Source: Alphaproteobacteria bacterium
GTDB taxonomy: Bacteria; Pseudomonadota; Alphaproteobacteria; Rs-D84
NCBI GenBank assembly: GCA_009784275.1
Contig: WRCA01000006.1
Span: 1 to 51,229, forward strand
Direction of reading: 5' to 3'
DNA length: 51,229 nt
A model generated the notes under the pieces. That model had not been told where the DNA came from. It saw only the letters and a list, made by a program, of their open reading frames with translations, and did not search any database. Both the position numbers and the translations under genes were made by a program. This document shows positions 30,387 to 42,431 of the stretch, piece by piece (the stretch's first letter is position 1; each line of letters begins with the position of its first letter).

Positions 30387-30460
30387 GCCCCCTTAGTATA
30401 ATGGTAGAACACGTCCTTGGTAAGGACGAGGCGCAAGTCCGATTCTTGCAGGGGGCACCA
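30387..30460 (+). tRNA. tRNA-Thr (GGT)
   Basis: GCCCCCT/AGGGGGC acceptor, CGTCC-TTGGTAA-GGACG anticodon arm, GCAAG-TCCGATT-CTTGC T-arm, CCA end; weak D-stem. Confidence 0.85.
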
Positions 30461-31979
30461 CTTTATGAGTATCGGACGATAAATCGTCAAAAAGCCCGAA
30501 AATTGGGGACAAAACGACAGTCCCAAATTTTTGTTCCTTGTTATACGAAATCCGGTCAGAAAAACACAAAGTTAGGACTAACTGTTTAATACCATAATCC
30601 CCGTTGCGCCAAACTTCAACCGGGCGGCGAACAAAATCCGCCACATACCCAAACGCTTCATCAAAAGGCATAAGTTCGTCTTGAAAGTTATCCACATCGT
30701 TTTGTAAGGTCAGTTTTTCAGATTCCAGCGTTTCAATTTTCAAATTCAAGGCATTACGCATAATACCATTAGCCGTGGTGTATGAATCTGCAATTATCAT
30801 CTGTTCTTTGTCTATCTCGGCAATCCGGTGTTGTTTTGCCTCTTTATCTGCACCATTCGCATTATGGCGTTCTTTATATTCTTTAACGGCCAAAGCTCGA
30901 GTTAAAGCCAACAGGTTCTCATTCGGGGCGATTTTTTCCAAAACTTCCTTTTCAAATTCATCGTGCAATCGTCCAGTCGCAACATTTACAAGGTGTCGGT
31001 TCGGGCAATTTCTTTTGCTTTGGCATTGATAATATGGATATAGGCCGCCTTTTGACCTACTGCCGGTCAATGGAAATCCACACTCGGGACAAGTAATAAA
31101 ACCTTTTAATAAAAACTGTTCATCCTGTTTGTTATATTTGCGCACTGCTTTACCGATGTTGCGTCCTTTAAGGCGGTCTTGTATAAGATTGAAAGTAGCC
31201 GTGCTGATAAGCGGTTCTATGTGCCACTTTTGCGTAGGAATGCCTTTGTCGGGGCGTGCGAAAACACCGGTATAAAACTGATTTGTTAGCATTCGTTTTA
31301 CAAAATCAAGATTCGTTTTATTTTTACTGATTTCGGCAAAACGAACATTTAGAAAGCCCATAACATCGCTTTGTGATACCAATTGTGCGCTGGCATACAT
31401 TTCCATTGCGTCCTTGATAATGTTGGCCTCGGACTGTTTCAGAACGATGGTTTTTCTTTTATCGCCCGGCATTTGTTTCCAAGTATAACCGGGCGGAATA
31501 CCATAAATCCACCAACCATCTTTCAAACAGGCCAAAGAAAATTCTATACATTTTTCTTGATTTGATTCACGCATAAGTTGTGCTTGTGCCGCTTCCATAT
31601 TGGCAATAAACCTCGCAACAGCATTTTGTGCCATTATTCCGTTTCGGTCGGCAAGGCGATGTCCTTTTTGCTCTATGAGTTTGCGCAATAATCCCCAATC
31701 ACAACTATCACGGGATAGACGACTTATATCATAAAACAAAACAACATAAGGTTCTTTTGCCTTATTTAAGAAATCTAACATAGCATTCAGTTGCGGGCGG
31801 CTTTCAATGTCTTTTCCTGATATTCCTGCGTCTGCATAAACTTTTTTAATATCCCAACCCAGCCGCCGTGCAGTTTCACGACAAATTTTCTCTTGGCTTA
31901 TCAACCCACCGCCATTTGCCACTTGGTCTGCTGATGATACTCGGATATATGCTAAACATAGTTCAATTTTGTTTTCCAT
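30393..31979 (-). CDS. Large serine recombinase / site-specific integrase
   Basis: Resolvase domain (YIRVSSADQVANGGGLISQEKICRE, YDISRLSRDSCDW), Recombinase domain, zinc ribbon (CPECGFPLTG...CQSKRNCPN), coiled coil; C-terminus is antisense to tRNA-Thr. Confidence 0.93.
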   Translation of the reverse strand: MENKIELCLAYIRVSSADQVANGGGLISQEKICRETARRLGWDIKKVYADAGISGKDIESRPQLNAMLDFLNKAKEPYVVLFYDISRLSRDSCDWGLLRKLIEQKGHRLADRNGIMAQNAVARFIANMEAAQAQLMRESNQEKCIEFSLACLKDGWWIYGIPPGYTWKQMPGDKRKTIVLKQSEANIIKDAMEMYASAQLVSQSDVMGFLNVRFAEISKNKTNLDFVKRMLTNQFYTGVFARPDKGIPTQKWHIEPLISTATFNLIQDRLKGRNIGKAVRKYNKQDEQFLLKGFITCPECGFPLTGSRSKGGLYPYYQCQSKRNCPNRHLVNVATGRLHDEFEKEVLEKIAPNENLLALTRALAVKEYKERHNANGADKEAKQHRIAEIDKEQMIIADSYTTANGIMRNALNLKIETLESEKLTLQNDVDNFQDELMPFDEAFGYVADFVRRPVEVWRNGDYGIKQLVLTLCFSDRISYNKEQKFGTVVLSPIFGLFDDLSSDTHKVVPPARIGLAPRPYQGRVLPLY

Positions 31980-32109
31980 TTAATAGCACCTTGTCAAAGA
32001 TAGTGTTTATTAGAATAACTAATTTGTCCCGATAAAGTTCAACCTGTTCATCTGTAAGGTCTAGACCGTCCAGATACTTTCTGCATTCCTGCACCGACAT
32101 TGTCGCCAT
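31963..32109 (-). CDS. 48-aa small ORF overlapping the recombinase start
   Basis: MATMSVQECRKYLDGLDLTDEQVELYRDKLVILINTIFDKVLLNGKQN; acidic helical composition; overlaps the recombinase start by 17 nt. Confidence 0.6.
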   Translation of the reverse strand: MATMSVQECRKYLDGLDLTDEQVELYRDKLVILINTIFDKVLLNGKQN

Positions 32110-32237
32110 CGCGCCCACCGTAATGGGTTGCGTTCTGGCTTTTTGTTATGCCCATAAGCAAAAACTTGGTTGGATAAGGCATATCCTATGCCGAACATCG
32201 CGGCATATATCAAGATGAACCAATTACTTTTTCTCAT
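32061..32237 (-). CDS. 58-aa small ORF with N-terminal TM or signal segment
   Basis: MRKSNWFILIYAAMFGIGYALSNQVFAYGHNKKPERNPLRW...; ATG overlaps the end of the upstream MerR-like gene. Confidence 0.4.
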   Translation of the reverse strand: MRKSNWFILIYAAMFGIGYALSNQVFAYGHNKKPERNPLRWARWRQCRCRNAESIWTV

Positions 32238-32808
32238 TCCACGCCTCGTTCAGGTTCAAAATAAAAAAGTTATTGGACATCAATTTATTTTGCGCCATTG
32301 AAATCATATCATCGGCACGCAATACATTGCATTTCCCGAGTTCATCCACAAAAAGATGAATCTCGTCAGATTCCTTCTCTTTATCAAAATAAGTGTATGC
32401 AATCTCGATTAAACTAAAATCTGTTCTGCCTAATTTTGTAAAAAGGGAAACTTTGGCCTCTTGTAATTTACGAATAGATATTCCAAAATTACGACAGGCC
32501 TTTAATATATGAATATAGGCCACATCAATCTGTGAAAAAGTGCGCCATTGGTCTGCGTTCTCTCTGTTGTCTATCAATAGCCCCTTTTTGCACCAGTCAT
32601 TCAAAACGCGACTACTTATCGGCAAATCCTGTTTGCGAAATCTTTTTTCTCGTAAATCTTTTAGGTTAGTTTTGTTTGATAAGTGGTCAAAGACAGGCAA
32701 AAATTTATTCGCAGATTCGTTTGTGCGCATAACAAAGGCCAGTTTCGGGCTGGTCATAAACTCTTGTGCAGAGCATTGTTTGGCCGTTATTTTCTTTTCG
32801 ACTTTCAT
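32224..32808 (-). CDS. MerR-like HTH transcriptional regulator
   Basis: PISSRVLNDWCKKGLLIDNRENADQWRTFSQIDVAYIHILKACRNFGISIRKLQEAK resembles the MerR winged-helix pattern. Confidence 0.6.
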   Translation of the reverse strand: MKVEKKITAKQCSAQEFMTSPKLAFVMRTNESANKFLPVFDHLSNKTNLKDLREKRFRKQDLPISSRVLNDWCKKGLLIDNRENADQWRTFSQIDVAYIHILKACRNFGISIRKLQEAKVSLFTKLGRTDFSLIEIAYTYFDKEKESDEIHLFVDELGKCNVLRADDMISMAQNKLMSNNFFILNLNEAWNEKK

Positions 32809-33001
32809 TTATTTCCGCCTCTGTGTAAAATCTTACATACAAGTAAGATTAGCAGAAAGAATATCGTTTGTAAAGAAAAATTTTATAAAGGGGGTGGGGA
32901 GGGGTTCACGCCACACGCACAAACGATGGGGGCGGGGTCAAAAGCACCGCCGCGTCAATAAATCACAATTCTCGCTTCCGCAAGCCATAGGACTGGAAAA
33001 C

Positions 33002-33643
33002 TTATGGTTCAAGATTTAATTGTAATAATTGGCTTAATCGCGCCAACTCTTTTGTGCGAACAGGGGCTTTTTTCGCCGCCTTATCGACGGTCTCCCAGTA
33101 ATCTTTTACTAAAATTTTGCTGATATATCCTATCTCGTCAAAGAAATGTGGCATTTTGCCAAAAACATCGATGTATAGCCGCTCTAAAATGTCCATCGCA
33201 TCGCTTACAGTGTATTTCAAGTCATTGTAAATTATCATCGCTTTATCCCCATCGGGCATATTATGAGCAATAGCATCTCTAAAATTTTTCAAACGCACCC
33301 CGTGTTCTGATTTTTGTATATTATTAAACCAGTCAGTCAAATCTTGTTTCTGTTTTGCCTGTAAAATATCACAATCGGGCTTTGTAATGATTTTAACGAT
33401 TGAATCCAAATTCACTTTGCTTTTACCAGCCGGTTCTATCAGTTTCTTGGCCGACAAGATAGCGCGATTACGGATTGCATAATACGAATAAAGGAAAAGA
33501 TGGGTATTAGACTGCAATTTCGGGACTGCATCTGGATACATAAACATACAACTATCAAGATATGCGCCGATGGCCTGACTGCATACAATCGGTAGTTGTT
33601 TTTCTAATTGCTGTCTATATTGTTGTTGGATAGTAGCCATCAT
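33002..33643 (-). CDS. 213-aa protein with HEPN/AbiU2-like RX4H motif
   Basis: VRLKNFRDAIAHNMPDG contains R-DAIA-H; alpha-helical; ATG overlaps the stop of the upstream gene. Confidence 0.6.
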   Translation of the reverse strand: MMATIQQQYRQQLEKQLPIVCSQAIGAYLDSCMFMYPDAVPKLQSNTHLFLYSYYAIRNRAILSAKKLIEPAGKSKVNLDSIVKIITKPDCDILQAKQKQDLTDWFNNIQKSEHGVRLKNFRDAIAHNMPDGDKAMIIYNDLKYTVSDAMDILERLYIDVFGKMPHFFDEIGYISKILVKDYWETVDKAAKKAPVRTKELARLSQLLQLNLEP

Positions 33644-35649
33644 AACCTGAAAATCCTAGTAAATGGTTTATGTATTCGTTTTGTATCGAACTCTATAATG
33701 GCTTCATTATTATATTTTATTTTACGTCTTATGAAATTTTCAATATCTGTCATATTCTCGTCGTGATGAAAAAACAGGATGACGTTTAATTCTCCTGAAT
33801 GCCAAAAATGCGTTGTTTTTGCCTTTTTTAGCCCATCGTCAATGGCACGTATAAAATCTGACTGCTTCATCCCATCAGGGACAAGATTCTTATCATCAAA
33901 CGGCAGGCCTAACAAAGTTAAACAAACATCTACATATTCTACTCCGGATGCATATATAGCATTGATTATGTATCCTAATCTCTCATTCATAGTAGTTTTT
34001 GGCTTTCTTGCTTTGCTCGTCTTTTCTTTTAAATCATAATATCCATCAATTCCCATATCGGAGGACATACCAGAAAAACACACTGTGCCATACTTTTCTT
34101 TAAAAGATAGGTTTAATCCTGTGCTCAAATACACAGCAAGCAAATCCATTTCATCGCACATCGTTAGCGGAAAATCATCATTAAAATTTAAGTTATATCT
34201 CTTTACAAAGTAATCCAATAACAATATCTCATTGTCCAAAACGTCGGCCACGATTTCCAAATCAGATATAACAAAAGTTGGGTTAGCATTCTCTTCCAAA
34301 CTGTTTGCCTTTGCATATTCTAATAAACTTCGTCTATCCAATGGATTCGCCGGAAGATAATCTAAAATGACATTAAATTTTATATATTCCGTTATTTGAC
34401 TTGTATCAACACAAATTTTGCCATTTGCTGTGGTAATTTCAATATCGGCAGTTTTAGATTTTAGATATTCTTCAAATCGATTTGCTTGCGTTGATGCATA
34501 AATCACATTCTTTTGATAATTTTCATTGAATGATTTGGCAGAACCTCTATAAACAGAATCTTTGAACCTGCCTGCTTTGGCCTCAAAGATTAGGGCTTTA
34601 TTGCCAATGATTACAGTGTGGTCATTTTCATATCTAACGCCACCACAATAGAACTCACCATTTTGTAAGTGTATTGCATTCGGAAACGATTGTTTAAGTA
34701 TTGCGCCTAATTTATTTTCTAAATATCTCGGCCTTACCGCCTCACGATACTGTTTTTGCACGGCATCACTTGAACCTAACAGATTTTCAAGGATTTTACG
34801 ACTGTTTGTGAACATTCTTGTTAGATGTCCAGCAAAATAACAACCATCAGAAATACATATTATCGGTTTTGATTGAACTGGATTATCAAGAAATATGTGT
34901 TCATCCGGCTTGCTTGCTAAATCTCCGAATTTTAAAGACATTTTATCGAACAATGATTTTATTTGTTCTGTTGTGATGCCCTTCGGAAATAATGGTTGTA
35001 GGTCTGATAGCGTAAAAACCTGTGCTGATATAAACTCTTTTAGGGTATGTTCTTTGCCGTCTTTGATTTGAGATGCTATTTCTACGCCTTTTTTGAAGAA
35101 GAGTTTTGTTATATCTTCGTGTAAGATGTCCACGACCTCTGATAATTCAAATCCAAATTCGCCTTTTGTTGATATATCCGATAAAACGTCTTTCATAAAT
35201 TGTATTCTTTGAAAAGAATAAGATTCGCCTCTGACCAATGCTGTGTAATTTTGTATACCTTGTATAAACAAGTCATCGGACTGACTTGCCCATCCAAATT
35301 GTCCACAGCATTTAAACGCCAAATCAAAAATCTTTTTAACTTCCTCATTACTTGGTTCATTGAATTTAAAATCCTTGTATTCGTGTTTTAAAATCAGGGC
35401 TTGGATAAGTTCTAACGGAGCACAACTTGGATTGTCCGTTGGGTTATATTCGGCCGCTCGTTTTAGGGCTATGATATATTTGTGATAAATCACGTATATC
35501 AGAACTGTAATCGGTTCAAATTCTAATAATATACTCTTCAATTCGTTTAAACTTGCATCTAACGAATCTTTTAAACGTTTTTGAATATCTTTAAATTCTT
35601 CACCGGACTGCATATCATCTTCCTGTATATCAACTTGTGTGTCCATCAT
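33640..35649 (-). CDS. 669-aa protein with PD-(D/E)XK (NERD-like) nuclease motif
   Basis: RYLENKLGAIL...VRYENDHTVIIGNKALIFEAKAGRF gives the E...D...ExK arrangement in mid-protein. Confidence 0.65.
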   Translation of the reverse strand: MMDTQVDIQEDDMQSGEEFKDIQKRLKDSLDASLNELKSILLEFEPITVLIYVIYHKYIIALKRAAEYNPTDNPSCAPLELIQALILKHEYKDFKFNEPSNEEVKKIFDLAFKCCGQFGWASQSDDLFIQGIQNYTALVRGESYSFQRIQFMKDVLSDISTKGEFGFELSEVVDILHEDITKLFFKKGVEIASQIKDGKEHTLKEFISAQVFTLSDLQPLFPKGITTEQIKSLFDKMSLKFGDLASKPDEHIFLDNPVQSKPIICISDGCYFAGHLTRMFTNSRKILENLLGSSDAVQKQYREAVRPRYLENKLGAILKQSFPNAIHLQNGEFYCGGVRYENDHTVIIGNKALIFEAKAGRFKDSVYRGSAKSFNENYQKNVIYASTQANRFEEYLKSKTADIEITTANGKICVDTSQITEYIKFNVILDYLPANPLDRRSLLEYAKANSLEENANPTFVISDLEIVADVLDNEILLLDYFVKRYNLNFNDDFPLTMCDEMDLLAVYLSTGLNLSFKEKYGTVCFSGMSSDMGIDGYYDLKEKTSKARKPKTTMNERLGYIINAIYASGVEYVDVCLTLLGLPFDDKNLVPDGMKQSDFIRAIDDGLKKAKTTHFWHSGELNVILFFHHDENMTDIENFIRRKIKYNNEAIIEFDTKRIHKPFTRIFRL

Positions 35650-36808
35650 TCGGCTCTTGATTCATATATTCTTGGTTGGCATCTCTATATAAACAGACAT
35701 CTTGTATGTAATCCCAGTTTATGTAGTCCAACAAATTATCCAAATCGTCATAATGAGAATCGGGAACATATCTAGAAATATCCTTATGAGTAAGCATTTT
35801 GCATATTTTCCAAATAAAAGAGTTTTTGACTTGTTCTTTGGTGCGTAAGCCGCTAGCGGCCAAGTATTGCTTTGGTGGAAGATAGAAATCGCTCGGTAGA
35901 TTTATTCTATTATCAAAGAAATAATACTTAAAATGAATCTTCATAATCTGCAACACATCTACAATTGTGCCGTCTGCCACCAGTTCCACATCAAACCATT
36001 CGTAAAAATCGTCATAACAAGTATGATTTCTTATTCTGAAATCCCAATAATCCTTACATAATCCAGTATCGCCAACGAGCCACTCATAACATCGCACGTG
36101 TTCTCGTCTTTGCATATATCTGCAATTATCATCAACTTCACCTCGAACAATTTTGAATTTGTGGTTTTTTGTATAATAATAAGCATCTTCACTTAAATTG
36201 TCGTGTGAGAAAACCCCAGATGTTTTCGGACGTTCCCAACCACACAAATCATCCAAATATAATGCAAATCTCTCATTTGTTGGCATATGTTCGCCACGCT
36301 TACGCGCAAATAATTCTTCTAACACTGATTTTTTACATAATTCACCGATACCAGTGTTCCGACTTCCATCTCTTGCGAAAATCCAATCTATTGGAAGGAC
36401 GTGATGCCTGTTGTTTTCATCTTGATAATTATCTGTTCTATGAAGAACATATGGCAAATCCCTCACATTGGGTGTGATTTTAATAATATCAATATATTTG
36501 TCGCCCACCGGCTCTCGCACTATCTCTATATGCGGTATAGCAGGCATATGATTCCGAAGGGTCTGGGTGATATTTTCTTGTGTCCTATGATTTGCATCAT
36601 TTGACACATCGTGTATTGTCTTTTCTTTTGTTTCTCTGTTTTCTGAAACGCCGATAACAATGTATCTTTCAATGCTGTCCGTCAAAGAATTACACATACA
36701 TAGAATATCGTGAATCAGGTCAAATCGGGCAGATGCGCCGGAATACCACTGGCGTTTAAAATCAACATAGTCATTTTCGGTTGATTGTGAAAGTTTTGCC
36801 CATAACAT
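35630..36808 (-). CDS. Schlafen AlbA_2 domain (putative ATP-binding) protein
   Basis: ENDYVDFKRQWY...LIHDILCMCNS...ERYIVIGVSEN typical of AlbA_2/AAA_4 N-termini; overlaps the next gene by 20 nt. Confidence 0.75.
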   Translation of the reverse strand: MLWAKLSQSTENDYVDFKRQWYSGASARFDLIHDILCMCNSLTDSIERYIVIGVSENRETKEKTIHDVSNDANHRTQENITQTLRNHMPAIPHIEIVREPVGDKYIDIIKITPNVRDLPYVLHRTDNYQDENNRHHVLPIDWIFARDGSRNTGIGELCKKSVLEELFARKRGEHMPTNERFALYLDDLCGWERPKTSGVFSHDNLSEDAYYYTKNHKFKIVRGEVDDNCRYMQRREHVRCYEWLVGDTGLCKDYWDFRIRNHTCYDDFYEWFDVELVADGTIVDVLQIMKIHFKYYFFDNRINLPSDFYLPPKQYLAASGLRTKEQVKNSFIWKICKMLTHKDISRYVPDSHYDDLDNLLDYINWDYIQDVCLYRDANQEYMNQEPNDGHTS

Positions 36809-37057
36809 CTTCGCTTCCTTTGTTGTTATATTGCTTTGTGATATAGGTAAAATAATCCTAATTTCAAGGTATCAGGCGAGGATTTTCGCTTGAAAATTTG
36901 CGGAAAAGGGTATTGTAATTTCGTATGCGCTGGCTGTTTTTGATGTCCACGGTCGGATTTGGCCGTTCAGTATAGACCGTCCCCCGCCCCTTGTTTAATT
37001 TTACTGGTATTTTGCCGTCCGCTGTTCTATTATTCCTGTGCACAAGCGAATGCTAGT

Positions 37058-37126
37058 GTTGGGCTTTTCAACCCACCGTTAAGCGTCAAGGATGACGACA
37101 CATCCCCAACCTTTGGTTGGGATGTG
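37058..37126 (+). ncRNA. Candidate structured RNA / leader (three consecutive hairpins)
   Basis: GTTG/CAAC (37058-37072), CGTCA-AGGA-TGACG (37084-37097), CACATCCCCAACC-TTT-GGTTGGGATGTG (37099-37126). Confidence 0.4.
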
Positions 37127-37175
37127 CGAATATATTGAATAAGCACGCAATTCTTAACGATTGTTGAAAAATCCC

Positions 37176-37206
37176 AACCGCCCTTTCCTTGTGGCGGTTT
37201 TTCTTT
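37176..37206 (+). terminator. Rho-independent terminator immediately upstream of a CDS
   Basis: AACCGCC...GGCGGTT followed by TTTTCTTT, 18 nt before ATG 37224. Confidence 0.7.
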
Positions 37207-37223
37207 ACACAAAAGGATTTGAT

Positions 37224-37778
37224 ATGAAAAAATTGATTTTAAGTTCACTGACTTTATGTGCGCTGGCGACAACGCCTGTGTTTTCAGATTTCACACAACA
37301 GGTGGGCAGGGATTTTTTATATGATTCCTGTGAGGAAACAATGCGAAATGGTATGAAACAGCGCAATATAAAGGTCAATGCTGACTATGCTCATATAATA
37401 CGAACCACTTGTAATTGTTATGCCGACAAAATGATAGAAAAAATAGATTGGAATAAAATCAACAATATGCCCGAGGCGCAAGTTGATGCGTATGTTGCAG
37501 GATTTGAACCGTCAGCAAGGACGGAATGCGCAGAACAGATGAAAAACCAAGTTGTTCATAACCCATCCAATACCGCCGCATATGAGCGCGGTCGCTCGCA
37601 AGGCAATAATTATTCCCATAAACAGCATAATTCCAATGTGGATAGTTCGGATGAATGGCTAGGTCGTTTGATGGCCGGTATTATTTTTGCAGGTGTTTTC
37701 AGTTTGTTGGCTTGGCTTATTAGTAAAGGCCTTAAAAACATTAGTGGCAAAGATAAGGATACAGATTCCAAAAAATAA
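37224..37778 (+). CDS. Hypothetical exported protein with signal peptide and C-terminal TM
   Basis: MKKLILSSLTLCALATTPVFSDF signal; C-terminal LMAGIIFAGVFSLLAWLISKG. ORF track begins 37161; ATG 37224 preferred. Confidence 0.65.
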   Translation: MKKLILSSLTLCALATTPVFSDFTQQVGRDFLYDSCEETMRNGMKQRNIKVNADYAHIIRTTCNCYADKMIEKIDWNKINNMPEAQVDAYVAGFEPSARTECAEQMKNQVVHNPSNTAAYERGRSQGNNYSHKQHNSNVDSSDEWLGRLMAGIIFAGVFSLLAWLISKGLKNISGKDKDTDSKK

Positions 37779-37786
37779 TTGGCCGC

Positions 37787-37836
37787 CCACGATAAAGGAA
37801 AGATGCGCCCTAGGGCGCATCTTTCCTTTATCGTGG
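37787..37836. repeat. 50-bp perfect palindrome (25-bp arms, no spacer)
   Basis: CCACGATAAAGGAAAGATGCGCCCT/AGGGCGCATCTTTCCTTTATCGTGG. Confidence 0.95.
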
Positions 37837-37865
37837 ATTTCTTCTCGCTCTCTGCATTCTCTTGC

Positions 37866-38141
37866 CTATAACCTCATCTTATATGCACTAAAACGCTCTA
37901 TCCCTATGATTCTGTCGCCTACACTAATCAGGGCACTAGAACCATATCCTTTAACAACCTCATCTCTAATGCCAGCATACATACCATATACATCTATACT
38001 ATCACGAATACTAACTATCGGTCTTATACCGTTCCTATTCTTTACCAAGGTAAGTATCCGGGGAATCTGCGGAATCCACAAAACCACCGTTGGTAACCCG
38101 CTTTTTCTGTAAAATCCCGCTTTCCTTGATAATTCTTGCAT
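37866..38141 (-). CDS. Hypothetical protein, 91 aa
   Basis: ORF convergent with the preceding gene; protein-like composition; no family recognised. Confidence 0.4.
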   Translation of the reverse strand: MQELSRKAGFYRKSGLPTVVLWIPQIPRILTLVKNRNGIRPIVSIRDSIDVYGMYAGIRDEVVKGYGSSALISVGDRIIGIERFSAYKMRL

Positions 38142-38217
38142 TTTTGATGATTGTATTATAAACTTCGTCCCAGTTGCCTACCTTTTCCCAACTTTTGGAA
38201 AGGAGGGGCACCAGAAT

Positions 38218-38793
38218 TTATATTTGCCAGTTTTTTTGATACGTCTTGCAATTCGACATCAAATGAGCTTTTGCCGCTTTGGAGACATACGATGCAGTTT
38301 TATTTATCGCCTCGACAAGCGTTTCACCTTTAGCGATTTGCCAATATGGCCCTTTTATCCCGATTACAGCGTATATATCTTTTTGCTCTATAACACTCCC
38401 ATCCCTTAATACTATGTATTTCTTGTTTTGGATATTTTTGAAGATATCTTTGCCCAGCGGAGGATCCAATTGTCGCAAACTATCAAGTGTTGGACATAAA
38501 AGAAATGTGATTTTTTCATAATCATGGTAGGTCAATGCTACAGACCCTATCGTGAAAAATATATTAGGTTCGCAATTGGCGCGTATTATTTTTACATTTA
38601 CAGTTTCTGGCAACTGAATTTGAAAATAGAGCGCTTCGCTGTCCCAAAGTTTATTAAAACGATCCCAAATGTCTCTATCTTTCATACGTAGCGCACGTCC
38701 CTCCTTATCCAGATTGGTTATTATTTTTAATTTAAGGCCATTCAGGAAAATTCTATCCTTATTAAAATCTGGCTCAAACGTGCGAAATTCCAT
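38218..38793 (-). CDS. Hypothetical protein, 191 aa
   Basis: Long ORF; no family recognised. Confidence 0.6.
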   Translation of the reverse strand: MEFRTFEPDFNKDRIFLNGLKLKIITNLDKEGRALRMKDRDIWDRFNKLWDSEALYFQIQLPETVNVKIIRANCEPNIFFTIGSVALTYHDYEKITFLLCPTLDSLRQLDPPLGKDIFKNIQNKKYIVLRDGSVIEQKDIYAVIGIKGPYWQIAKGETLVEAINKTASYVSKAAKAHLMSNCKTYQKNWQI

Positions 38794-38955
38794 TTTTATA
38801 CCTTTGTTATCTCGAATAGTATCACTCTATAGATATTTGTCAATATTATTTGTAAGTATGTTTGTAAAAAGGAATTGCTTTTTTGCTGTGTTATATTAGC
38901 ATGTTATATGTCAACAAATTTGGGACGAGAGAGAACAGCCAAAAAAGGCCACAAT

Positions 38956-40251
38956 ATGCCATATCCAACCTCTGCCCAACGTCCGGATCTTCTTAAAATT
39001 CTGGAAGAAGAAATTGCCGTAATAAAATCAACCATCAAACCAGGCGAAAAAGTGCTCTGCGCGCTTTCCGGCGGCGTTGATTCATGTGTTGTTGCAAGCA
39101 TACTGCATGAAGCAATCGGCGATCAATTGATTTGCGTATTTGTTGATCATGGCGGGATGAGATTTGGTGAAGCCAAAGAAATCAAACAAAGATTTACCAA
39201 GCAATTCGGTCAAAGCTTTATCGCAGTAGATGCATCCAAGGAATATTTAAGAGCCATCAAGGGTGTTTCGGATTCCGAGCAACTACGCAAGATTATTGGT
39301 AAAAAATTCATAGATGTATTCAAGGAAACAGTTGATAAATTCGAAAACATAAAATACTTTGCACAAGGGACGATTTTAACCGACCTTGATGAAAGCGGGC
39401 ATGGGGGCAAAAATAAAATCAAGACTCATCATAATGTCGATGTTGATAAATTCGTTGAGGAAAAAGGGTGGACTTTGATAGAACCACTTAAACGTTTACG
39501 CAAGGAAGATGTTCGCACAATCGGCAGCTGGATGAATATTCCGGAAGAACATTTAAAGCGTCAGCCATTCCCCGGTCCCGGCAATTATCTTCGCGTCATA
39601 GGCGGCAGCGGCATAACAGGTAAAGATTTGAAAAAAGTTTCAGAGTTTGATGCAATTGTCAGGAGACGCCTCGATGCAGCCAAACTTCCTGATGCCAAAC
39701 AATATTTCGGCGCAGTAGCAAAAAATATGAAATTCAGAGGCGACTTTGTCAGAGGAATTAATAAAGAACTTATCGAGGAAGCCAAAGATATAATCGGAAG
39801 TGTTATTCATCCGAGATTTTTTACCGATGACCTGGTAAGTCTTGCGCCGAAAACCAAAGTCACCGGAATCAGGGATGAAGCGCGTGCCGAAGAACCAATC
39901 ATGGTTGTTAATGGTTTATCTATACTTAATGCGGCGCTTGGTGATGGTAAAGTTTCAAAAGATACTGATATTAAGTTAAACAAAATCAAGTGCGAAATAG
40001 CGGATAGGATTTGCGCTGCGCTGCCAATCGGTCGCGTGATGTACAACCAGAACATGGCTTCGCTCTCTAATCCTTATAGTTTTATTGTGCGTGCGATTAA
40101 TACCACGAACTTTGACCGAGCTGTGCCAACTTATATAAATATGGGCCTGCGGGTAACCATTAAGAGAGATCTTGATGAGCTGTTTGGGCGCTGTCAGTCT
40201 TTATTGTTCGATATGACCAGCAAGCCAAGCTCTACGGTAGAATACAGGTAA
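38956..40251 (+). CDS. guaA: GMP synthase-like ATP-pyrophosphatase without glutamine amidotransferase domain
   Basis: PP-loop CALSGGVDSCVVASIL; RQPFPGPGNYLRVIGG; C-terminal MTSKPSSTVEYR; no GATase region. ATG at 38908 is an alternative start. Confidence 0.75.
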   Translation: MPYPTSAQRPDLLKILEEEIAVIKSTIKPGEKVLCALSGGVDSCVVASILHEAIGDQLICVFVDHGGMRFGEAKEIKQRFTKQFGQSFIAVDASKEYLRAIKGVSDSEQLRKIIGKKFIDVFKETVDKFENIKYFAQGTILTDLDESGHGGKNKIKTHHNVDVDKFVEEKGWTLIEPLKRLRKEDVRTIGSWMNIPEEHLKRQPFPGPGNYLRVIGGSGITGKDLKKVSEFDAIVRRRLDAAKLPDAKQYFGAVAKNMKFRGDFVRGINKELIEEAKDIIGSVIHPRFFTDDLVSLAPKTKVTGIRDEARAEEPIMVVNGLSILNAALGDGKVSKDTDIKLNKIKCEIADRICAALPIGRVMYNQNMASLSNPYSFIVRAINTTNFDRAVPTYINMGLRVTIKRDLDELFGRCQSLLFDMTSKPSSTVEYR

Positions 40252-40258
40252 TTATACT

Positions 40259-41575
40259 TTATTCCCATCGAGTGCCCAGCATATAAATCGGAAGCTCTGT
40301 ATCGCCTTGTTTATGACGCAGGTGTCCCAGCGTCGCATAGATTGTTTCTTTCGGTTTGAAAGTTCCTTTGTAAAATTTCATACCCGGCGAGTGACGTCTG
40401 CCTTCATTTAGTCTAATTTTTACCGGCACGATTTGTCCCTTTGTTTCCAACACGAATTCTATTTCTCCGTAATTTTTGTCCCCATTCCAATAGAACATAG
40501 GAATTCCATCACCATGCGCGAGAAGTTCTTGGAAAACAAATTGCTCCATCGTACCACCGCTTACATTACCAAAGTTCGGATCACGGATTCCGCACATTGC
40601 GCACATCAGTCCAATATCTGGTAAGTACAATTTGAATATATGCGGTTCCGCATTATCCGCTAATGGTGGCTGCGGGATTCGCACCCTGTGCAAGGCATAC
40701 ATCATTCGCGTATCTTTCAGCCATTCCAATGCGGAATCAAAATCCCTTCCACGGGAACCAGGTCGGACCCTGGAATACAAAAAGCGCCGGTTTTGTTCCT
40801 GCAATTGCTTTGGCACGCTGTTCCATATCTCACCGGCACGGCGGGATAATGCTTTATCACCAGGGCGTTGTGAAAAGTCGGCGTAGTTAGCTGCCAGAAT
40901 CATCTCGTGCTCGCGTTGTGTATAAGCGCGATCTTTGCCGGTTTCCAAAAATTTTTTTACTGCGGCGGGCATTCCCCCCACGAATAAGTATTCCCCCAAA
41001 AGGGCCATGATAGAATCATGAAACACAGAAATCTTATCCCAGTCGCGGCTTTGCAAAGCTTTCGCATATTGACCAGAATCATCCGTCGCCGTCAGAAATT
41101 CCAGAAATGTCATTGGATATAGGGTCATTGTATCTATTTTATCTTCTGCCTCGACACACTCCTTGCGGCAAATGACTTCCAGGAAATTGCCTGCTGCTAT
41201 GATATGGTATTCAGGAGTTGACTTTCGGAATTCATTTAGCGCGATCAAGGCTTTTGGGCACCATTGGATATCGTCCAAAATAATCAATGTAGTTTCTGGA
41301 GAAATTTCTGTTTTTGTAAAAGAGGAAAGCTCTTTGATTATGCGTTTTGCGTCCAACGTTCCGTCAAAGATATGTTGCGCGCCGCTGTTCTGGTTAAAAT
41401 GGATGTATACAGCGTTTGTATAGCCGGTGCGTCCGAACTCCCTCATCAGCCAGGTTTTCCCCACAGATCGCGCCCCGCGCAGCAATAGGGGGCGTCTGTG
41501 CCCAGAATTTTTCCAATTTTCAAGCTTTTGCATCGCGATACGCCACATTTCCCAGCCTTTTGCTCTTGATTTCAT
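40259..41575 (-). CDS. AAA_14 / DUF4143 ATPase
   Basis: Walker A LLLRGARSVGKTWLMREFG, Walker B TLIILDDIQWCPKAL, ELLAHG...FYWNGDKNYGEIEFVLE DUF4143-type C-terminus. Confidence 0.85.
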   Translation of the reverse strand: MKSRAKGWEMWRIAMQKLENWKNSGHRRPLLLRGARSVGKTWLMREFGRTGYTNAVYIHFNQNSGAQHIFDGTLDAKRIIKELSSFTKTEISPETTLIILDDIQWCPKALIALNEFRKSTPEYHIIAAGNFLEVICRKECVEAEDKIDTMTLYPMTFLEFLTATDDSGQYAKALQSRDWDKISVFHDSIMALLGEYLFVGGMPAAVKKFLETGKDRAYTQREHEMILAANYADFSQRPGDKALSRRAGEIWNSVPKQLQEQNRRFLYSRVRPGSRGRDFDSALEWLKDTRMMYALHRVRIPQPPLADNAEPHIFKLYLPDIGLMCAMCGIRDPNFGNVSGGTMEQFVFQELLAHGDGIPMFYWNGDKNYGEIEFVLETKGQIVPVKIRLNEGRRHSPGMKFYKGTFKPKETIYATLGHLRHKQGDTELPIYMLGTRWE

Positions 41576-41770
41576 CAGAGTTATTATACCTATTTTTTAC
41601 CGAAATTCAAAGAAGTTCAGTGATAAGTTTGCACGTGATTCTAGAAATAATGTGCAATATAAACACATTATTCTAATTTTTCTCTTGACTATGGAATTCG
41701 GCGGACTAGACTTTTAATTGTTACAGAGTGGACGATTCGTCGGGCGAGAGATGGCAAAAGAGGCCAAAAA

Positions 41771-42199
41771 ATGGTGATTTTTGATAAAAACAGCTGGGAT
41801 AATGGCGCAATTAGCGAAAATTCTGCAAATGGAAGTTTTCTTCCAGAGTCTGTGATGCAGCAACCCGTCAATATAAAAGGGCAGATTTCATCCGCTGTGG
41901 CTGGACTTGGTATAATTCCACGGCTTCTGCCGGTTATCGAAGCATATGAATCAAAAGAGATAAGAAAAGAGCAGACAGAATTCTGTATGCCTGATTTTGT
42001 TTATGCTGCAAGTAAGGAAGACTCTTTTTGGAAAAACTTCAAACTGCTGCGCGACTGGCACGTCGCTGCAGGCGTCGAAAATCCGGACGAGGCCGTATTG
42101 CGGGATGTAGAGCAGTTATTGATTCTTGAACTCCGCTTGAGCGATTTTATATTCGAAGCATTTAAGAAAGATGGGAAGGCATACTTTATGCTTGCATGA
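41771..42199 (+). CDS. Hypothetical protein, 142 aa
   Basis: Coherent ORF; no family recognised. Confidence 0.5.
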   Translation: MVIFDKNSWDNGAISENSANGSFLPESVMQQPVNIKGQISSAVAGLGIIPRLLPVIEAYESKEIRKEQTEFCMPDFVYAASKEDSFWKNFKLLRDWHVAAGVENPDEAVLRDVEQLLILELRLSDFIFEAFKKDGKAYFMLA

Positions 42200-42223
42200 A
42201 TTACGATTGCAGATGATTACTGC

Positions 42224-42251
42224 TTGAAATGTTTTAAATTCAGATTATAAT
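42224..42251 (+). promoter_or_regulatory. Putative sigma-70 promoter of the T-box leader
   Basis: TTGAAA (42224-42229), 16-nt spacer, TATAAT (42246-42251). Confidence 0.6.
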
Positions 42252-42257
42252 ATTGGC

Positions 42258-42431
42258 AATGGAATTTATCTGCGATGACCCGATTGACGACCGGAGAGCT
42301 GTGATTTCCAAAAATTAAAGATAAAAGACAGGGTGGCACCGCGCTAAACCCACCCATCGAAATCTGTGATTTCGTTGGGACTAGGGATCCAGCGCCCCTG
42401 ATTATAAATAAGAAACAAAAAGGTGCTTTTC
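42258..42431 (+). promoter_or_regulatory. T-box-like leader upstream of aspS2
   Basis: AGGGTGGCACCGCG at 42330-42343; antiterminator-type fold CAGGG(42329-42333):CCCTG(42396-42400) and GCGCT(42341-42345):AGCGC(42391-42395) with 7-nt bulge TGGCACC; internal hairpin CGAAATC-TGT-GATTTCG. Confidence 0.8.

Follow-up and report, generated by a model that had tools for sequence, protein, structure and literature searches.

In the stretch of DNA analysed here (51,229 nucleotides; hereafter, the window), three minus-strand open reading frames with overlapping ends, designated P1, P2 and P3, are situated within an island next to a tRNA gene. They were found exactly at the coordinates given in a preliminary description of this DNA, and all motifs quoted there were located in the translations. 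The genome assembly containing the window comprises 889,944 bases and is 96% complete. The features of the region are as follows:

30387..30460, plus strand: tRNA-Thr(GGT), the left edge of the island, recognized by ARAGORN and Rfam.
30393..31979, minus strand: large serine recombinase (Pfam Resolvase/Recombinase/Zn_ribbon_recom).
30461..42270, no strand: the insert (island), about 11.8 kb, as compared with the empty sites in two genomes, G006 and G010.
32224..32808, minus strand: MerR-type regulator (Pfam MerR_1, 24.6 bits), downstream of P3 after a 193-nt gap.
33002..33643, minus strand: P3, ATG start, 213 aa, HEPN-like protein with R122-D-x3-H127.
33640..35649, minus strand: P2, ATG start, 669 aa, predicted PD-(D/E)XK nuclease with a helical N-terminal region.
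35630..36808, minus strand: P1, ATG start, 392 aa, Schlafen/AlbA_2-domain protein, candidate RNase.

P1 and P2 overlap by 20 nt, P2 and P3 by 4 nt (ATGA), and the G+C content by codon position is coding-like in all three genes (45/32/34, 43/30/30 and 46/29/38% for P1, P2 and P3, respectively). Since overlapping genes abound in this genome (of 15 neighbouring plus-strand gene pairs in the window, 5 overlap), the overlaps within the trio favour an operon, yet they are nothing unusual. The G+C content of the trio is 34–38% vs. 43% in the flanks. The motifs include ENDYVDFK (residues 11–18) and GVSEN (53–57) in P1, YLENK (from 309), YENDH (from 340) and FEAKAG (from 355) in P2, and FRDAIAHN, containing R122 and H127, in P3.

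The association of the trio with a tRNA-integrated serine recombinase was borne out: the recombinase reading frame runs into tRNA-Thr, so that the ~22 codons at its end lie on the strand opposite the tRNA gene, in antisense orientation (30393–30460). Apparent recombinase “homologues” of 22–28 aa (up to 91% identity), encountered in many relatives, represent only this tRNA-Thr antisense stretch and were discarded. In G006 and G010, the gene order is uracil-DNA glycosylase, tRNA-Met, tRNA-Thr and, directly thereafter, a class II tRNA synthetase gene; in the window, ~11.8 kb separates the latter two. The edges were delineated by comparison of gene order and by alignment of the synthetase leader, the right edge being approximate. 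Apart from the recombinase, the MerR-type regulator (probably island cargo rather than a member of the operon) and the trio, the insert harbors small uncharacterised genes, a GMP-synthase-like gene, an AAA_14/DUF4143 gene and another small gene, and it may be composite. No convincing att-site direct repeats were found at the island. A 12-mer, CGAGGCGCAAGT, is present both in tRNA-Thr (at 30427) and in the reading frame 37161–37778 (at 37472) and would bracket the recombinase and the trio; a match of this length is close to the chance expectation and may be fortuitous.

Several other elements in and near the insert were recorded. A 20-bp stem with a T-rich tail (37788–37835, plus strand), following the reading frame 37161–37778, is the strongest terminator-like hairpin of the region. 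The GMP-synthase-like ATP pyrophosphatase gene (38875–40251, plus strand) lacks the glutaminase domain, has a divergent C-terminal half and was not found in the five relatives searched; the AAA_14/DUF4143 ATPase gene occupies 40259–41575 on the minus strand. The class II tRNA synthetase gene is preceded in three genomes by a T-box-like leader (AGGGTGGCACCGCG...CGCCCCTG):

Window, 42213–42402, plus strand: T-box-like leader.
L026, 14168–14330, minus strand: T-box-like leader.
L024, 19178–19213, plus strand: T-box-like leader.

The Rfam T-box scores of these leaders are weak (E of 0.12, 0.026 and 0.0011, respectively) and far below the gathering score; a putative leader of this kind is unexpected here, the lineage being probably alphaproteobacterial.

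The N-terminus of P1, described earlier as AlbA_2-like, indeed matches Pfam SLFN_AlbA_2 (PF04326) at residues 11–127 with 31.9 bits, above the curated cut-off of 25.3, whereas residues 7–242 match the PADLOC candidate PDC-S50 with E = 4e-35, covering profile positions 14–224 of 387 only. In both matches P1 is akin to PDC-S50 and bacterial Schlafen proteins; it differs from PDC-S50 in the partial coverage of the profile and in E instead of D at the third acidic position. Plasmid relatives of P1 match the PDC-S50 profile at near full length. Eight of them (~345–400 aa) align along most of P1 with 19–23% identity; their neighbourhoods are varied and devoid of P2 or P3 relatives; unlike P1, these family members do not form an operon with such genes. 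The active-site acids of rat SLFN13 are E205, E210 and D248 (PMC5862951), and the five-residue spacing of the first two is the same as that of E11 and D16 in P1. The position of D in the GV.D motif is occupied by D in all eight aligned relatives and by E56 in P1. By alignment, E56 is possibly the third catalytic acid, equivalent to D248 of SLFN13; because it replaces the D of all eight relatives, the activity of P1 is uncertain. Relatives of P1 are mostly solitary genes, and none was found in the 60 relatives of the window genome sampled. On an E. coli plasmid (L045, 4977–9203), the gene of a PDC-S50 protein is convergent with that of a 932-aa SEC-C protein, which gave no match to the P2 profile.

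P2 matched neither Pfam nor PADLOC, and its nuclease-like E/D/ExK arrangement, proposed from the letters alone, was upheld by invariant residues, a fold model and Foldseek matches. A tblastn search in plasmids returned 13 records with 22–26% identity, and L002 aligns with P2 along the entire length. A DNA pattern made by hand from END-x12-EAKAG gave 63 loci in 84,980 genomes, nearly all belonging to the P2 family by profile search; a scan with patterns derived automatically from the alignment found nothing, the peptides picked being uninformative. In total, about 70 relatives were gathered. In P2 and seven plasmid relatives found by tblastn, i.e., without the pattern, E311, E341, D343, E356, K358 and Q388 are invariant. 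Among 60 family sequences, E311, Q388, P257, P262, R484, G242 and E500 are invariant though not demanded by the pattern, while the invariance of E341–D343 and E356–G360 in this set is built in, as these residues belonged to the search pattern.

The AF2 model of P2, built on a 31-sequence alignment, has a pTM of 0.77, and its core (residues 295–428) mostly displays pLDDT of ~90 or above, save the loop near 361–370. A helix (295–321) carrying E311 is followed by three strands (326–335, 338–348 and 351–358) with the acidic and lysine residues, a helix (371–398) carrying Q388 and further strands, an order corresponding in the model to the alpha-beta-beta-beta-alpha-beta core of PD-(D/E)XK enzymes. 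The best PDB matches by Foldseek are mostly such enzymes, e.g., Nt.BspD6I, R2, Can2/Card1-type proteins and McrC, with marginal E-values (from 2e-3). With its relatives, the invariant residues and this confident fold model, P2 is best described as a predicted PD-(D/E)XK nuclease; its family is large, in part NERD-like, and its members usually stand alone. In length and in the E...E-x-D...E-x-K...Q core it resembles the NERD-like PD-(D/E)XK proteins (often annotated as NERD or SEC-C), differing from them in the lack of a Pfam match and of a C-terminal SEC-C; Pfam NERD (PF08378) is matched at E ≤ 1 by four of the eight family members tested, P2 not being among them. NERD domains occur in other named systems (PMC10952713); no NERD-containing named system with the gene set of the trio was found.

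The P2 family is present in ~2% of the sampled Pseudomonadota (7/399) and was found neither in 30 relatives nor in 289 class members sampled. Of 96 genes adjoining P2 relatives, integrases form the commonest class; defence genes are few, and most of these neighbours are not related to defence. The closest relative, in Flavobacterium (L107), is followed by a gene of a STAND-type NTPase, a relative in Chryseobacterium (L052) has RloB nearby, and single matches to PD-T7-1, AbiEi and Old were recorded.

The identity of P3, a probable HEPN protein, is less firm than the domain identities of P1 and P2. Its best Pfam match is HEPN_AbiU2 (PF18734; E = 6.5e-5) with 22.9 bits, below the curated cut-off of 26.8 bits, followed by weak matches to two further HEPN families. 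Its homologues score 12.6–20.5 bits against HEPN_AbiU2 or do not match it; one other family member matches HEPN_AbiU2 (E = 3.5e-4) and HEPN_Apea. The pattern R-x4-6-H with a polar residue after R, characteristic of HEPN proteins, takes the form R122-D-A-I-A-H127 in P3. Since R-x4-H occurs in 14% of shuffled P3 sequences (2% with N/D/H after R), the motif alone is weak evidence. The real evidence for the putative HEPN identity is the invariance of the motif in six diverged homologues: the R-D-x3-H-N segment is the same in all six family proteins, whose pairwise identity is 26–51%. Thus, of the HEPN-type assignment proposed earlier, the motif stood, and its invariance was added; with an AbiU2 match below the cut-off, the assignment is only probable. 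A single-sequence AF2 model of P3 is helical, but with pLDDT of 37 it is useless as evidence of fold, and the hhalign profile comparison of P3 with AbiU2 relatives was not significant. P3 shares R-x4-H and the polar residue after R with the AbiU2/HEPN abortive-infection proteins; it differs in the sub-cut-off score. Additional positions are invariant within the P3 family, among them E70-P71 and Y182-W183. Searches of plasmids (E ≤ 0.1), of phages (E ≤ 1) and of viral contigs gave no relative of P3.

Taken together, the active sites bear on the idea that the locus is a restriction-like element, in which P2 would be the sole effector, a stand-alone DNase excluding incoming DNA, and P1 and P3 its non-catalytic regulators. 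P2 by itself is widely conserved, its active site being invariant, and among its fold matches are McrC as well as nicking and restriction endonucleases; however, the HEPN catalytic pair is kept in every P3 homologue, and P1 retains E11/D16 of the Schlafen motif, so we consider this explanation highly improbable.

The preliminary description presented the trio as a candidate undescribed three-gene system. The combination was not found described in the literature, and PADLOC, as anticipated, matched no named system, only P1 (to candidate PDC-S50), with no match for P2 and P3. What did not stand is its conservation. Around the ~70 loci of the P2 family, those of the P1 family and the remaining five loci with P3, no second member of the trio was found, nor was a second example found of the pairs P1–P2, P2–P3 or P1–P3, the scope being flanks of ~1.5–8 kb of the fetched loci searched with single sequences or profiles. 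The absence of co-occurrence anywhere examined, which the description itself had named as grounds for abandoning the idea, led us to reject the trio as a conserved system. A phage origin was likewise rejected, as INPHARED phages hold no relative of P1, P2 or P3; viral contigs gave no single-protein match to any of them, although two carry distant P2-family genes. PDB sequence searches with the single sequences or profiles of the three proteins yielded no convincing relative.

Alternatively, the three genes could be independent single-gene defence or toxin genes, merely adjacent as co-resident cargo of a compact island, with no joint mechanism. The usually solitary nature of P1 and P2 relatives, the lack of any recurring pair and the commonness of overlapping genes in the genome are in line with such an arrangement, whereas two overlaps (20 and 4 nt) within one operon imply that the genes are transcribed together and translated in a coupled manner, and in four other settings, too, P3 either overlaps its partner gene or lies right next to it; on balance, this explanation appears possible, if somewhat doubtful.

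These other settings came from a profile search, which found P3 in 6 of the 183 genomes of the taxonomic family of the window. The six neighbourhoods are all different:

Window: P3 with AlbA_2 (P1) and PD-(D/E)XK (P2) genes, overlapping P2 by 4 nt.
L143: P3 with a tyrosine integrase gene, 4-nt overlap.
L144: hipB-hipA-P3, 32-nt overlap.
L145: P3 on its own, with a Type ISP restriction-modification gene on one side and integrase fragments on the other, a SIR2-like gene nearby.
L152: P3 behind a Fic gene, 16-nt gap, restriction-modification genes downstream.
L153: P3 behind a gene of an ABM-domain (monooxygenase-like) protein, 3-nt gap.

The P1 and P2 profiles gave no match near the five other P3 loci. 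P3 recurs without P1 or P2 nearby, therefore the conserved unit is P3 and not the trio. In L144 (3728–8291) and L153 (1543–6769), P3 is found beside the same two genes, hydrolase-like and flavodoxin-like, with different partners (hipBA and ABM); these shared neighbours suggest an insertion hotspot.

A broader view would be that mobile HEPN cassettes make up a family specific to this lineage, with P3 as its founding member, and are swapped between unrelated toxin or defence operons (HipBA, Fic, Schlafen + PD-(D/E)XK) as a common RNase arm or control element, the window representing a three-nuclease version; as a generalization, we regard this as conceivable but rather unlikely. MNT proteins are known to control HEPN toxins by covalent modification. 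An improbable, though not far-fetched, explanation is a toxin–antitoxin or addiction module, in which P3 would act either as an RNase toxin of the HEPN type or as an antitoxin common to several modules, and its partners (P1/P2, the HipA kinase, the Fic AMPylase) would control it or vice versa. P3 homologues are encoded immediately behind HipA (32-nt overlap) and Fic (16-nt gap), both protein-modifying enzymes; HEPN-MNT pairs are known (PMC4621449), as is promiscuous exchange of partners in toxin–antitoxin systems (PMC10440598). Still, the partners in the window are nucleases, not modifying enzymes, and most of the six settings lack a modifying partner. The P3 loci resemble the HEPN-MNT and promiscuous toxin–antitoxin networks (PMC4621449, PMC10440598) in that a HEPN protein shares an operon with a different enzyme and a module has several partners; they differ in the absence of an MNT domain and in the partners (HipA, Fic, nucleases or integrase).

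Matters of observation are the genes, their domain identities (P3 less firmly), the residues of the active sites, the insertion of the island and the repeated occurrence of P3. Tentatively, and falling a little short of an even chance, the locus may be read as a three-gene nuclease operon belonging to the cargo of an island integrated at tRNA-Thr, i.e., an abortive-infection or anti-mobile-element module in which P3 is a mobile HEPN cassette. In the best reading, the trio would be a one-off operon of this island, its nucleases killing either the host or the invader, to which P3 was added as a mobile HEPN gene. The three genes would be co-transcribed, presumably from one promoter; P2, with its PD-(D/E)XK core and helical N-terminal region, would cut DNA, while P1 (Schlafen-type) and P3 (HEPN) would cut RNA, probably tRNA or rRNA, thereby stopping translation in the presence of an invader. 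As the mobile HEPN cassette of the lineage, P3 would be joined by overlap or close spacing to whichever gene for a toxin or for defence is found on the island. Abortive defence against phages or rival elements would be the simplest use of such a trio. HEPN families act in abortive infection (PMC3710099), and, according to PMC12839542, citing a preprint by Taboada et al. (2025), Schlafen-linked systems cleave tRNA in anti-phage defence; the reading accords with these recorded roles. It is favoured by the defence genes adjoining some P2 relatives (STAND-type NTPase, RloB, PD-T7-1, AbiEi, Old), whereas the lack of a recurring trio or pair, the mostly non-defence neighbours of P2 relatives, E56 in P1 and the sub-cut-off score of P3 speak against it.

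No description of the three-nuclease combination (Schlafen + PD-(D/E)XK + HEPN) was found, although P1 by itself already matches the candidate PDC-S50. Genome-reduced bacteria retain few accessory genes; hence, the expenditure of nearly 4 kb on three nucleases in a 0.89-Mb genome suggests real selection by phages or mobile DNA. If a HEPN gene of this kind indeed opens or closes many different toxin and defence operons, it would make the swapping of parts between such systems testable.
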